DNA of 40,790 nt from a virus, in the IMG/VR virus record IMGVR_UViG_3300050132_000227, positions 1 to 40,790 of that record; one strand, 5' to 3'. Positions 24,628 through 33,167 of the stretch are shown here, piece by piece (position 1 is the first letter of the stretch; each line of letters begins with the position of its first letter). A program made the translations under genes and the position numbers. The notes beneath the pieces were generated by a model. The model was not told the DNA's origin. It worked only from the letters and a program-made list of their open reading frames with translations, and did not search any database.

Positions 24628-25735
24628 AGGGGGATTTGTCCGCGACGAGCGGAAAAACCCGTTTGTAATGATCGCGGTTGAACTGATTGACCGTTTTGGG
24701 CCGCTGATCGGAGCCAACGGAATTGCTGTCTACATCGTTCTGGCTCGCTATGCCAACCGCACGACGCGCCGCACGTATGTGAGCCTGAAGTTGATTGCAA
24801 AGAAGCTGGCTATCAGCCAGGCGACGGTTTCCAGGGCCATAGCTGCACTCATTCAATACCGCCTGGTGCACCGTGAGAGTGGAAAGCTGAAGGGCGCGGA
24901 GACAGAGTATATCCTGCGCGACGTGCCACGGGAGAAGCTCTCGGACAGCGCTCCGTTATTTGATAATCTGCCGGAGGGGTCAATCAATATGACTCACCCC
25001 CCTCAACCCGGAAAAACACCCCTTGTGGCATCTGTGAGTTACATCGACCAGGCCGGGGGGGTAAGTCAATATGACTCACCCCCCTCAGTCAATATGACTT
25101 ACCCGGTGAGTCATATTGACTTACCAGGTGAGTCAAAAACGAGGGGGGGGGTAAGTCAAAATCGACCGCCATATAAGGAAGAACCAGATGAAGTACTAAC
25201 CAGATTAGACAGAGTAGTTCCACCATCATCATCCTTGACGCAAAAAAAAAGCGACGATGATGGTGAGAATCAGGTACTCGGTTCCATCCGAGAAACCGAC
25301 CAAGCCCCCGGTTCCGTCCGGGACGAATACATCCGAAAAGTTCTCGATGCCTATCGAGAGACTCCGGGAACCACTGGCACGGCTCACTCGTCAGATTCAC
25401 GCATAGCGGGTGACCTTTTCGACCGGAAGATAGCACTGCAGGACGCAATAAACGGGATCACGCTGGGAGCTGCGCGCCGCCTTTTTCGCGACGGCGGGGC
25501 TCCTCCAGGAGATGTTCGGTCGCTGGCTTACTTTCGAGCGGTCATTGACGAAGTAGGGGAGACGGAGGTCAGCGATGACTACTACCGGCATCTCCGCAGC
25601 AGCCTGGAAAAGTTTGTCAGGAAAAACGAATTGGCGCGTATAAGAACAGCTTCAGCCTCCGCCACTGAGCGTGAGGAAGAAGAGTCCCGCCTGCGCGCTG
25701 GATGGGGAATGGCAGCCTCAGAGACAGGAGACTAA
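24620..25735 (+). CDS. Replication initiator (winged-helix), contains origin
   Basis: 371 residues from GTG 24620 (GTG 24611 is also possible). Residues 15-90 are a winged helix-turn-helix typical of plasmid and phage initiators (ANGIAVYIVLARYANRTTRR, then SLKLIAKKLAISQATVSRAI). The middle (about 120-190) is low-complexity and coded by iteron DNA. A C-terminal helical region with QDAINGITLGAARRLFRDGG resembles DnaD/O-like helicase-loading segments. Lambda O likewise carries its origin inside the gene. The gene ends five bases before ParA. It probably loads host DnaB; no phage polymerase or helicase is present. Confidence 0.8.
   Translation: MSKGGFVRDERKNPFVMIAVELIDRFGPLIGANGIAVYIVLARYANRTTRRTYVSLKLIAKKLAISQATVSRAIAALIQYRLVHRESGKLKGAETEYILRDVPREKLSDSAPLFDNLPEGSINMTHPPQPGKTPLVASVSYIDQAGGVSQYDSPPSVNMTYPVSHIDLPGESKTRGGVSQNRPPYKEEPDEVLTRLDRVVPPSSSLTQKKSDDDGENQVLGSIRETDQAPGSVRDEYIRKVLDAYRETPGTTGTAHSSDSRIAGDLFDRKIALQDAINGITLGAARRLFRDGGAPPGDVRSLAYFRAVIDEVGETEVSDDYYRHLRSSLEKFVRKNELARIRTASASATEREEEESRLRAGWGMAASETGD
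24984..25165. other. Putative replication origin with iterons
   Basis: Inside the initiator gene. The 22-mer TCAATATGACTCACCCCCCTCA occurs twice exactly (24984-25005, 25066-25087). It is followed by a related copy starting TCAATATGACTTACCC (25089) and then an inverted copy GGTGAGTCATATTGACTTACC (25105-25125). The 25126-25165 stretch adds GGTGAGTCA and GGTAAGTCA half-sites beside a G-run. The consensus GGTRAGTCA-AT-TGACTYACC is itself nearly palindromic, as for a dimeric initiator site. The repeated sites, their variants and their place in the initiator gene strongly suggest an origin. Confidence 0.8.
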
Positions 25736-25740
25736 CGGCA

Positions 25741-26502
25741 ATGATTATCGTATGTGGAGGCATCAAGGGCGGCTCTGGAAAGACCACGGCCGCGGTGAAT
25801 CTGGCGATTATGCGGGCGGGCAAAAAAAGAGACGTTCTGCTGATCGACGCGGACGATCAGGAGACGGCGAGCGGCTTTACCCAGCTGCGCAGCGAGAAGC
25901 ACGCGGCAGGGCTGAAGTGGACGAACCTGGCATTCCAGCCCGAGGGTTGCGCGGTGTACACAAGCATTCAGCTTTCCGGGGCCGCTGTGCGCACCCAGGT
26001 ATTACGGCTGCGCGACAAGTACGACGACATTGTGATCGACACCGGAGGCCGCGATACGACTTCGCAACGCGCTGCGCTGACGGTGGCCGATCTGCTGCTG
26101 GTGCCGTTTGTGCCGCGCTCGTTTGACCTGTGGACGCTGGAGGCGGTGGGCGAACTGGTGGAGGAGATGCGTCCGGCTAATCCCAATTTGCGGGCGGCAA
26201 CGTTTCTGAACCGCGCCGATCCGCGCGGGCCGGATAACGCGGAGGCGGCGGAGATCCTGCGCGAGATCCCCGCGCTGGAATTTTCTGGAGTGAGCCTGGG
26301 AACGCGGAAAGCCTTTGCCAACGCGGCGGCGGAAGGGTTGGCGGTGACAGAGCTGCGTCACGCGGACGAGAAGGCGCTCGAGGAGATTTGGGCGCTATAC
26401 AACTGGGTCTTCCTGATGCGCAAGATTGAGCCGGTACCGGATAGTGGCGGAAATCAGTTTGATATCACGCGTCCGGAGGCAGCCCATGGCAATTGCGCGT
26501 AA
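25741..26502 (+). CDS. parA: ParA-family partition ATPase
   Basis: 253 residues; ATG 25741, with AGGAG at about 25724. Residues 6-16 form a deviant Walker A with a signature lysine (GGIKGGSGKTTAAVNLA), residue 35 starts Leu-Ile-Asp-Ala-Asp-Asp-Gln (Walker A'), and Ile-Val-Ile-Asp-Thr-Gly-Gly (about 97-103) is Walker B-like. Together with the downstream ribbon-helix-helix gene, which overlaps it by 17 bases, it forms a type Ib-like partition pair (cf. ParF-ParG, delta-omega). The role would be stable maintenance of an extrachromosomal prophage. The last 20 residues are unlike the family. Confidence 0.9.
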   Translation: MIIVCGGIKGGSGKTTAAVNLAIMRAGKKRDVLLIDADDQETASGFTQLRSEKHAAGLKWTNLAFQPEGCAVYTSIQLSGAAVRTQVLRLRDKYDDIVIDTGGRDTTSQRAALTVADLLLVPFVPRSFDLWTLEAVGELVEEMRPANPNLRAATFLNRADPRGPDNAEAAEILREIPALEFSGVSLGTRKAFANAAAEGLAVTELRHADEKALEEIWALYNWVFLMRKIEPVPDSGGNQFDITRPEAAHGNCA

Positions 26503-26773
26503 GCCTACAACTCTGGCGCGGGCTCCGGTGAATGTGGAGGCGTTGATTAACCGCGGAGGAAACCCGGCCAGGAGCAATGGCAACGGTCACAGAGACCTGC
26601 CAATTACAAAACGGGGAAGCGTGACAAACCCCGACGTGACACCAGTGATTTTGCGGGTGCCGAACGAGACGCTGGCGGCGATCGATGCCGACGTCACGGC
26701 GAGGCGGGTGAAAACTCCGAGGCATACCTGGCTGCTGGAGGCTATCGCGGAGAAGCTGGAGAGGGGGCGCTGA
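26486..26773 (+). CDS. Ribbon-helix-helix DNA-binding protein, ParA partner
   Basis: 95 residues; ATG 26486 with GGAGG eight bases upstream. A disordered, basic N-terminus of about 45 residues is followed by a typical ribbon-helix-helix: TPVILRVPNETLAAIDADVT, then Thr-Trp-Leu-Leu-Glu-Ala-Ile-Ala-Glu-Lys-Leu. The N-terminal basic tail is what such partners use to stimulate ParA. It overlaps parA and likely binds its own control/centromere DNA, perhaps the TGATATCA sites nearby. The C-terminal AIAEKLERGR recurs in the next gene. Confidence 0.8.
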   Translation: MAIARKPTTLARAPVNVEALINRGGNPARSNGNGHRDLPITKRGSVTNPDVTPVILRVPNETLAAIDADVTARRVKTPRHTWLLEAIAEKLERGR

Positions 26774-27046: not shown

Positions 27047-27193
27047 GTGAGCCGAGAGGATTACGACCTGGTTCTGATGCTGCTCGGCGCTGGCAGCCTA
27101 GGCAACAGGCTCGTCCCGCTAGCGAAATCCCTGGGGCTGTTAAACCGTCTCAACGAAGGAAATCCAAACTACACGCCATACGAGGTGAAATGA
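27047..27193 (+). CDS. Small protein, 48 aa
   Basis: GTG 27047, TGA 27193 overlapping ATG 27193 of the next gene (TGATG). The sequence SREDYDLVLMLLGAGSLGNR, then LAKSLGLLNRLNE, reads as a real helical protein. The ribosome site is weak (AAAGG 13 bases upstream). A 37-base gap from the previous gene contains only an 8-codon frame. Modest confidence; it is supported by the exact TGATG coupling. Confidence 0.5.
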   Translation: MSREDYDLVLMLLGAGSLGNRLVPLAKSLGLLNRLNEGNPNYTPYEVK

Positions 27194-27540
27194 TGGAAAT
27201 CACGACTGGAAGAATTGTGTTGTACAAGCTCACGGAGCAGGACGCCGCCGAGATCAATCGCAGGCGGACAACCGGCGGATCAATCTCCGAAAGAATCAAA
27301 AACAACGGGATGGAATTGTCGCAGGCGACAAACATCCCCGACACCTGGCCGCTCGGTACGCAGGCCCACATCGGAAATTCAGCGACTGCGGGTGAGCAGT
27401 ACCCGATGGTTGTGACGCGGGTGTGGTCACCGGGGTGTGTTAATGGGCAGGTATTACTCGATGGCAACGATTGCTTTTGGGCAACGAGTGTGTCCGAAGG
27501 AACCGGCGAGCGTAGCTGGAGTTGGCCGCCTCGCGTGTAA
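27193..27540 (+). CDS. Phage hypothetical protein (SWSWPP-ending family), 115 aa
   Basis: ATG 27193 (ATG 27190 just before also possible), with GAGGTG upstream. Its beginning (GRIVLYKLTEQDAAEINRRR) and later YPMVVTRVWSPGCVNGQVLL, Asp-Gly-Asn-Asp, and Trp-Ser-Trp-Pro-Pro ending resemble a common family of small phage proteins of unknown function. It is the last gene of the early chain before the structured RNA. Confidence 0.75.
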   Translation: MEITTGRIVLYKLTEQDAAEINRRRTTGGSISERIKNNGMELSQATNIPDTWPLGTQAHIGNSATAGEQYPMVVTRVWSPGCVNGQVLLDGNDCFWATSVSEGTGERSWSWPPRV

Positions 27541-27748
27541 AATGGCATTACCCCTGTGAAGAGATGCCACCTGAAGAAGGGAGCGGCGGATAGTCCGCCC
27601 GGGCCTCGGTAGCTCGCAAGGTTATCTCGTTTTGCCGGGTGCGATGTTACGGCAACCGGAGCGAGGCGAGCGAAGGCGAAGTGAGGTACAGCGGGCCGCT
27701 CCCGCGATAATCCCCCCTCCCTGGTCCCCAAGCGGGCTGGGGATTTTT
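27541..27748 (+). ncRNA. Candidate structured ncRNA
   Basis: About 208 bases without a gene, ending in a terminator. In order: TGGCAT (27543-27548) pairs with ATGCCA (27564-27569); GGGAGCGGC (27579-27587) pairs with GCCGCTCCC (27695-27703) as the outer helix. Within it, CCTC and GCTC, with a 4-base bulge, pair with the contiguous GAGCGAGG of the 3' side, and TTGCCG pairs with CGGCAA around a 12-base loop. A competing GGCGGA-TAG-TCCGCC hairpin also exists. The nested long-range helices and the terminator fit an independent or processed phage RNA. No known family is recognised. Confidence 0.65.
27725..27748 (+). terminator. Rho-independent terminator of the early region
   Basis: TCCCCA (27725-27730) and TGGGGA (27738-27743), loop AGCGGGC, followed by TTTTT (27744-27748). 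It would end both the early operon and the structured RNA. Confidence 0.85.
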
Positions 27749-27782
27749 CTTGCAACTAGCCACGGCGGGATTAAGATTGTGA

Positions 27783-27806
27783 GTACATTCACATTTGTAG
27801 ATGTAC
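27783..27806. promoter_or_regulatory. Dyad upstream of the Acb2-like gene
   Basis: GTACAT (27783-27788) and ATGTAC (27801-27806) form a perfect inverted repeat with inner ACA/TGT symmetry. It is 21 bases before ATG 27828 and its ribosome site. A possible operator; no T-tract, so not a terminator. Confidence 0.45.
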
Positions 27807-27827
27807 GGAATAAGGGAGGGCAGAGCC

Positions 27828-28196
27828 ATGTGCGACCGAGAAATCAGAGAGAAAGCTCAAGCGCAGCGCGATTGGAACGACCGGCACGGAGCGGGACAGA
27901 GTGGTGGCCCGACTGACCCAGTGCCGGTCAATGAATGCATGACAGGCCACGCTCCGATGGGCCCGAACGAAATACAGGAGATGTATCTGGCTGAGGTATT
28001 GCGGCGGCTGGACTATCATCCTCCGACGACGGTAACGCTTCCGAAGTTCCGGGCTATCAGGGATGCGGCGAAGGCGTTTATCGTGGTGCTGGTGCGCAAC
28101 TGCCCGCCGGGCAGCCGGGACAGCGAGCAGGCGATTGCACAGGTTGAGTGCGCGGTGATGGTAGCCAATAAAGCCATCGCTAACGCACAAATGTGA
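27828..28196 (+). CDS. Acb2-like anti-CBASS protein (cyclic-nucleotide sponge)
   Basis: 122 residues; ATG 27828 with AAGGGAGGG upstream is preferred over ATG 27801. The C-terminal half matches the Acb2/Tad1-type hairpin domain: a His-Pro-Pro turn, then Phe-Arg-Ala-Ile-Arg-Asp-Ala-Ala-Lys-Ala-Phe, Cys-Pro-Pro-Gly-Ser-Arg-Asp, and VECAVMVANKAIAN at the end, as in the Ala-Asn-Xxx-Ala-Ile-Ala tail of the family. Known members form hexamers that bind cyclic di- and trinucleotides and block CBASS defence. The N-terminal 60 residues are extra. The role is inferred from the family. Confidence 0.75.
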   Translation: MCDREIREKAQAQRDWNDRHGAGQSGGPTDPVPVNECMTGHAPMGPNEIQEMYLAEVLRRLDYHPPTTVTLPKFRAIRDAAKAFIVVLVRNCPPGSRDSEQAIAQVECAVMVANKAIANAQM

Positions 28197-28471
28197 TCAC
28201 GCGCCTCGACATGACGCGCGAGGAGTTCGACCGGCGCCGAGACCGGCTGCGATCGCGTTGGGCGCAATTGATTGAGAACCTGAAACTAAGCGCGCCTGGT
28301 GACGTCTTCTCCATCTGCTTGCGAGATGGGGAGAACACCGGCCGGGCGCGCAAACGGGCGAGGCAGTCGATCTACGCGATTGCCAAACACCACGGGATCC
28401 ACATCCGAATCTGTAGCACCCCGCTGGCAATCCTGATTATGAGGGTGGAGGACTTAGAGCCTCGGCCTTAG
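28193..28471 (+). CDS. Hypothetical protein downstream of the Acb2-like gene, 92 aa
   Basis: GTG 28193 overlaps the previous stop (GTGA). A basic N-terminal helix (MTREEFDRRRDRLRSRWAQL) leads into an alpha/beta segment (SICLRDGENTGRARKRARQS) and a beta-rich end (HIRICSTPLAILIMRVEDLE). The coupling to the Acb2-like gene suggests a linked role in counter-defence or early takeover. No family is recognised. Confidence 0.6.
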   Translation: MITRLDMTREEFDRRRDRLRSRWAQLIENLKLSAPGDVFSICLRDGENTGRARKRARQSIYAIAKHHGIHIRICSTPLAILIMRVEDLEPRP

Positions 28472-31778: not shown

Positions 31779-33167
31779 ATGAAGATTTCAGAGTTAATCA
31801 AGCCGACCGAGCGCCAGAGGGAATGTCTGAAGGCGCTGCGCTTGTTCCGGTTTGTGCTGTACGGCGGGGCGATGGGAGGCGGCAAATCCTATCTGCTGCG
31901 CTGGTGGTGCGTACTCCAGTGCGTGTATTACTTCGCCAAGTACGGCATCCGGAATGTTCGGGTCGGGCTTTTCAGCGAAGACTATCCCACGCTGGTTGAC
32001 CGGCAGATTTCGAAGATCAAGTGGGAGTTTCCAAGCTGGCTTGGCAAGATCAGCGAGAGCCGCACGGAAGGATTCAGCTTCAAGCTCTGTGAGCAGTTGG
32101 GCGGAGGAGTGATTGCCTTCCGCAACCTGGACGATCCGAGCAAGTACAACTCGGCCGAGTTTGCAGCGATCGCGGTTGAGGAGTTGACCAAGAACAAGGA
32201 GAGCGTCTTCCATGAGCTTCGTAAACGTATGCGGTGGCCCGGAATTCCGGATGACGACACTCGATTTCTTGGCGCTACTAACCCTGGTGGGCCTGGTCAT
32301 GCGTGGGTAAAAGGCTTTTGGCTGGATAAGGATTTTCCTCCAGAGATGGAGTCGCTCAGAAACCAGTTTTGTTACGTGCAGTCGAAGGCGCAGGATAATC
32401 CTCACCTGAGTCCTGGCTACTATGAGAGCCTGCTGACGCTGCCTTCCGACATGGCAAAAGCCTACGCGGAGGGTGATTGGGATCTGTTCGCAGGGCAGTA
32501 CTTCAAGCAGTGGCGCAAAGACGTTCACGTCATTGATCCGCAGCCAATACCATGGTTTTGGAAGATTGAGCGCTGTGGCGACTGGGGCGAATCGAAGCCC
32601 TGCGCGTATTTGTGGATAGCGACCTCTCCGGAGGGAGAAAAGATCGTCATCGGCGAGGTTTCTGAAGCCGGCCTGAGCGTAAAGCAGCAGGCTTTGGCAA
32701 TTCACGCTTTCGAGCGTGGTAAGAACGTGGAGCGGATCGGCGTGCTGGACGGCGCCTGCTGGGATGCGACGGGCAGGCCGAAGAGTATCGCGGATCAGTT
32801 TGCCGAGTTCAAGGTGTTCTGGGCCCAGGGCGTAAAAGGCCCGGGCTCAAGAGTGGCGGGATGGCAACTGGTCAGACAGTGGCTCGACTTCACTCGCAAC
32901 GAGTTGGGCAAGGTCAACGTAGAACCCCGGCTGAAGGTGTTCAGCACCTGCAAGCAGTTCATCCGGACCTTTCCATCGCTGGTGCATGATAAGAACAAGC
33001 CCGAGGATCTCGACAGCGACGGCGAGGACCACTGCGCGGACGCGCTGAGATATCACTTATATGCGATAACTCATGCGCCAAAGACTCCCGAGGGCGAGCT
33101 CGGTGAGGATGAGGCGGCGTACTTGAGGAACGCGGACAAGAGGTACCAGGAGCAACAGGCGAGATGA
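31779..33167 (+). CDS. terL: Large terminase subunit
   Basis: 462 residues; packages DNA into the procapsid and cuts it. Walker A-like GGAMGGGKS (about 29-37), Walker B AIAVEEL (about 129-135), an ATNPGG coupling loop (near 168-173), then the RNase H-type nuclease with Asp in GDWGE (about 266), Leu-Asp-Gly-Ala-Cys-Trp-Asp (about 324) and Asp-Gly-Glu-Asp-His (about 414). ATG 31779 with GGGAG. Overlaps the next gene by ATGA. Confidence 0.95.
   Translation: MKISELIKPTERQRECLKALRLFRFVLYGGAMGGGKSYLLRWWCVLQCVYYFAKYGIRNVRVGLFSEDYPTLVDRQISKIKWEFPSWLGKISESRTEGFSFKLCEQLGGGVIAFRNLDDPSKYNSAEFAAIAVEELTKNKESVFHELRKRMRWPGIPDDDTRFLGATNPGGPGHAWVKGFWLDKDFPPEMESLRNQFCYVQSKAQDNPHLSPGYYESLLTLPSDMAKAYAEGDWDLFAGQYFKQWRKDVHVIDPQPIPWFWKIERCGDWGESKPCAYLWIATSPEGEKIVIGEVSEAGLSVKQQALAIHAFERGKNVERIGVLDGACWDATGRPKSIADQFAEFKVFWAQGVKGPGSRVAGWQLVRQWLDFTRNELGKVNVEPRLKVFSTCKQFIRTFPSLVHDKNKPEDLDSDGEDHCADALRYHLYAITHAPKTPEGELGEDEAAYLRNADKRYQEQQAR

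Follow-up and report, generated by a model that had tools for sequence, protein, structure and literature searches.

The gene-free stretch at positions 27541-27748 of this phage genome is most likely an ordinary untranslated 3' trailer that ends in the intrinsic terminator of an operon encoding an O-like replication protein (rep) and a ParA-like protein (parA), a reading to which we assign a probability of about 70% and which is also the simplest and most economical one. Nothing found in our study shows a conserved functional RNA at this location. The window analysed spans all 40,790 bases of one IMG/VR virus record, and all positions given here refer to that record. Comparisons with Pfam and PHROGs identified genes for a major head protein, a portal-like protein, the large subunit of the terminase, and an internal virion protein, together with two integrases, the O-like replication protein, the ParA-like protein, and a gene of the Acb2/Tad1-hairpin family. 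The last gene before the gap, p27190 (27190-27540, forward strand), resembles phrog_19300, whose function is unknown (PHROGs E 1.4e-22). After the gap, on the same strand, lies the Acb2-like gene (27828-28196; Pfam PF24729, E 2.9e-10 for the open reading frame 27801-28196), whose start was set at the ATG at 27828 because a GGAGG is present at 27815-27819. The trailer reading is favoured by this gene order and these gene families, by a hairpin and T run of terminator type that follow the last gene, and by the combination of no coding signal, a whole-region fold at the level of shuffled sequences, a moderately unusual inner rod, and the absence of homologues and Rfam matches in our searches.

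The original prediction described this region as a gene-free gap of about 208 nt after p27190, and its non-coding status is upheld: all six frames have negative coding scores, between -0.22 and -0.52 bits per codon, whereas the flanking genes p27190 and Acb2-like reach +0.21 and +0.22, respectively. It is important to consider that this score is imperfect for short genes, as the nearby short predicted gene p26773 is also slightly negative (-0.02). A coding frame had been named beforehand as a refuting result, and none was found among the six frames of 27541-27748.

At the 3' end of the region, on the forward strand, positions 27718-27748 contain a terminator-like hairpin and the T run that follows it. 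Its stem (27718-27743) has 10 pairs, six of them GC, with a pair probability of about 0.5, and is followed by TTTTTCTT, which gives the GC-rich hairpin and U run of an intrinsic terminator; a second register of 8 pairs exists at 27723-27745. Terminator-like sites are not commoner in this 4-kb stretch than in shuffled sequences (4 vs 4.3), which counts against the trailer reading; the case for a terminator at 27748 is made by its position after a gene together with its stem and its T run. Phage operon 3' trailers with intrinsic terminators consist of a gene end, an untranslated stretch, a GC-containing hairpin, and a T run. All of these are present at 27541-27748, with the difference that here the terminator is preceded by a further 160 nt or so of folded sequence. 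Transcription would pass through this folded sequence and halt at about 27748, and the hairpins would compact the 3' end of the mRNA and may shield it from 3' exonucleases.

Single-sequence predictions, on which all the structures described here are based, place three elements on the forward strand upstream of the terminator. The first is a 5' hairpin at 27543-27569, with 7 bp, a 13-nt loop, pair probabilities of 0.75-1.0, and a z-score of -2.65 when folded alone. It is followed by an imperfect 125-nt rod at 27579-27703 with an outer 6-bp helix and several bulges, and within this rod by a 6-bp hairpin, GGCGGA-TAG-TCCGCC, at 27585-27599 (pair probabilities 0.73-0.97). The 6-bp hairpin, the 5' hairpin, and the terminator-like hairpin of the original prediction are thus all recovered in the predicted fold, whereas its 9-bp long-range helix is recovered in part. 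The perfect 9-bp inverted repeat is present (27579-27587 and 27695-27703), yet the predicted ensemble forms no more than the outer six pairs (probability about 0.97); of the inner three, the 5' bases are taken up by the 6-bp hairpin (0.95-0.97) and the 3' bases by pairs with 27602-27604. Perfect inverted repeats of at least 9 bp are found in 10.7% of shuffled sequences and in 9.7% of the 208-nt windows of this genome.

The fold-stability signal of the rod is modest. The whole 208 nt fold at -87.1 kcal/mol, compared with a mean of -83.3 for the shuffles (z -0.79), and 43 of 200 shuffles are as good. The rod alone (27579-27704) has a minimum energy of -64.1 kcal/mol and a z-score of -3.1, with one of 500 shuffles as good, its ends having been picked after the fact to fit the structure. 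To correct for position, each shuffle was allowed its lowest-energy 126-nt window at 4-nt steps; an energy of -64.1 is then attained in 8 of 300 shuffles of the 208 nt and in 2 of 300 of the 287-nt gap. At the same steps the real sequence gives only -59.1 because they miss the exact ends of the rod. Among the 813 forward 126-nt windows of the genome, scanned with 30 shuffles each on a grid placed so that one window starts at the first base of the rod, the rod ranks seventh by z-score and second by energy. Such stability exceeds what a terminator requires, and this too weighs against the trailer reading.

The search for relatives covered both known RNA families and the sequence itself. As the original prediction had supposed, no known family can be recognised: Rfam release 15 yields none at its gathering thresholds and none convincing at E 10. 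The NsiR1 family (RF02399) aligns weakly with the terminator hairpin plus the last part of the rod (15.2 bits, E 1.8), far under its gathering score of 39, so that the region is not a member. DNA similarity searches in phages and plasmids returned short chance matches only. In IMG/VR, six back-translated patterns taken through an open antisense frame gave no confirmed relative, and the exact pattern GGGAGCGGCGGANNNTCCGCC had three matches, each lacking the remainder of the rod. Relatives were also sought through p27190, Acb2, ParA, TerL, the capsid protein, and the replication protein; only ParA, TerL, and p27190 yielded any, and none of the loci of these relatives carries the RNA. A single-sequence covariance model, which is weak (effective number 0.53) and for which no positive control existed, had no hit at E 0.1 among 396 genomes from the phylum to which an Acidobacteria MAG belongs, and a capsid search for a host in the same phylum also found nothing.

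In other readings the region acts as an RNA in its own right. The rod and terminator might be cleaved free as an orphan phage sRNA, either from the operon transcript or from a transcript starting at a promoter in or before p27190, and act in trans, with RNA or protein of the host or the phage as its target. The compact 125-nt rod with a z-score of about -3, the terminator at its 3' end, and the lack of a coding signal are consistent with this. We consider it unlikely given that no homologue or Rfam match was found in the collections searched, that the promoter scan found no sigma-70-type promoter upstream, that the phage contains no complement of a length visible to a DNA search, and that the z-score of the whole region is -0.8. 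The narrower proposal, a phage-specific sRNA without known relatives that is cut from the replication-partition mRNA and acts in trans during infection, appears a little less likely again. In bacteria and phages, sRNAs derived from 3' UTRs have a structured 3' end and reuse the terminator of the mRNA. The region shares such a structured 3' end with the mRNA's own terminator; unlike in them, a discrete RNA, its processing site, and its target would all be hypothetical here, and no conservation was seen in the collections searched. If it does form a discrete RNA, this would be an orphan without relatives in the collections searched. An antisense role within this phage, as originally suggested, is unsupported: the only other match within the surrounding 3.2 kb is 12 nt long and on the same strand, and a DNA search against the whole 40.8-kb record returns only the self-match at E 0.001. 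The coding, antisense, and mobile-element readings were each rejected or disfavoured on the evidence given here.

The proposal that the region is an attenuator, in which readthrough into the Acb2-like gene about 80 nt further on would depend on whether the terminator or an alternative fold forms, seems improbable to us. When growing chains are folded, a nascent chain ending at 27722-27738 pairs 27706-27722 with 27578-27595, and this alternative helix opens the outer helix of the rod and occupies only the terminator's foot; when the chain reaches 27742, the rod and the terminator take over. The helix does form in the model, but it is not beyond chance because in 222 of 300 trials the 5' arm of the terminator pairs no less with shuffled upstream sequence. 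The helix also extends no further than 27722, so that the 8-pair register at 27723-27745 stays free, the full-length minimum lies 13.6 kcal/mol below the best fold in which the 3' arm of the terminator is open, Rfam contains no known riboswitch or leader that matches, and promoter-like and operator-like sequence sits 3' of the terminator. Less probable still is a DNA element, which could be a site of attachment, packaging, or replication origin, or else a mobile element bounded by 9-bp inverted ends. The perfect 9-bp inverted repeat with its ends at 27579 and 27703 fits such an element; against it, no tRNA was found, the sequence occurs once in the 40.8-kb record, no target-site duplication is visible by eye, the likely origin is elsewhere, at the iterons in the rep gene (24975-25165), and the terL gene is at 31779. 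The packaging RNA once proposed for this region is left without support, as the gene preceding terL, which we read as terS, is 3 kb away.

Under the trailer and terminator reading, an operon-end terminator has little importance beyond marking a transcription boundary and hinting that expression of the Acb2-like counter-defence gene is independent of the replication operon, from which the terminator would insulate it. Just 3' of the terminator, on the forward strand, a promoter-like TTGCAA-N16-TAAGAT (27750-27777; 8 of 12 matches, noted by eye and under the scanner cutoff, hence putative) is followed by a perfect CRP-type palindrome, TGTGA-N6-TCACA (TGTGAGTACATTCACA, 27778-27793), the GGAGG, and the ATG at 27828. 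The palindrome is the sole match in the 40,790 bases, even when one mismatch is allowed, a level at which shuffles give about one match. This promoter-like and operator-like sequence suggests that the Acb2-like gene is controlled separately, probably through a promoter and operator of its own.

Our study also identified other features of this genome. The ParA gene and the small gene downstream of it (25702-26773) form a pair whose members are seen beside each other in many bacterial contigs; the small gene (26426-26773) was matched beside ParA in 20 of 93 loci, at E 3e-4 or better. It may encode the DNA-binding partition partner of ParA, a role that we infer since neither Pfam nor PHROGs names the gene, and on account of this pair the phage may be maintained like a plasmid despite its two integrases. 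The head protein (781-2322) matches phrog_14242 (E 2.4e-46), and neither a tblastn match among 50,697 phage records nor a confirmed IMG/VR relative was found for it. Within the O-like replication gene, 24975-25165 contains iteron-like repeats of the TCAATATGACTCACCC type and a perfect 21-bp inverted repeat, a likely replication origin, and the genome's strongest fold z-scores are reached by windows at these iterons. Strong fold z-scores also occur in the windows 28279-28404 (-5.2) and 2129-2254 (-5.8), which lie at least partly in predicted genes.
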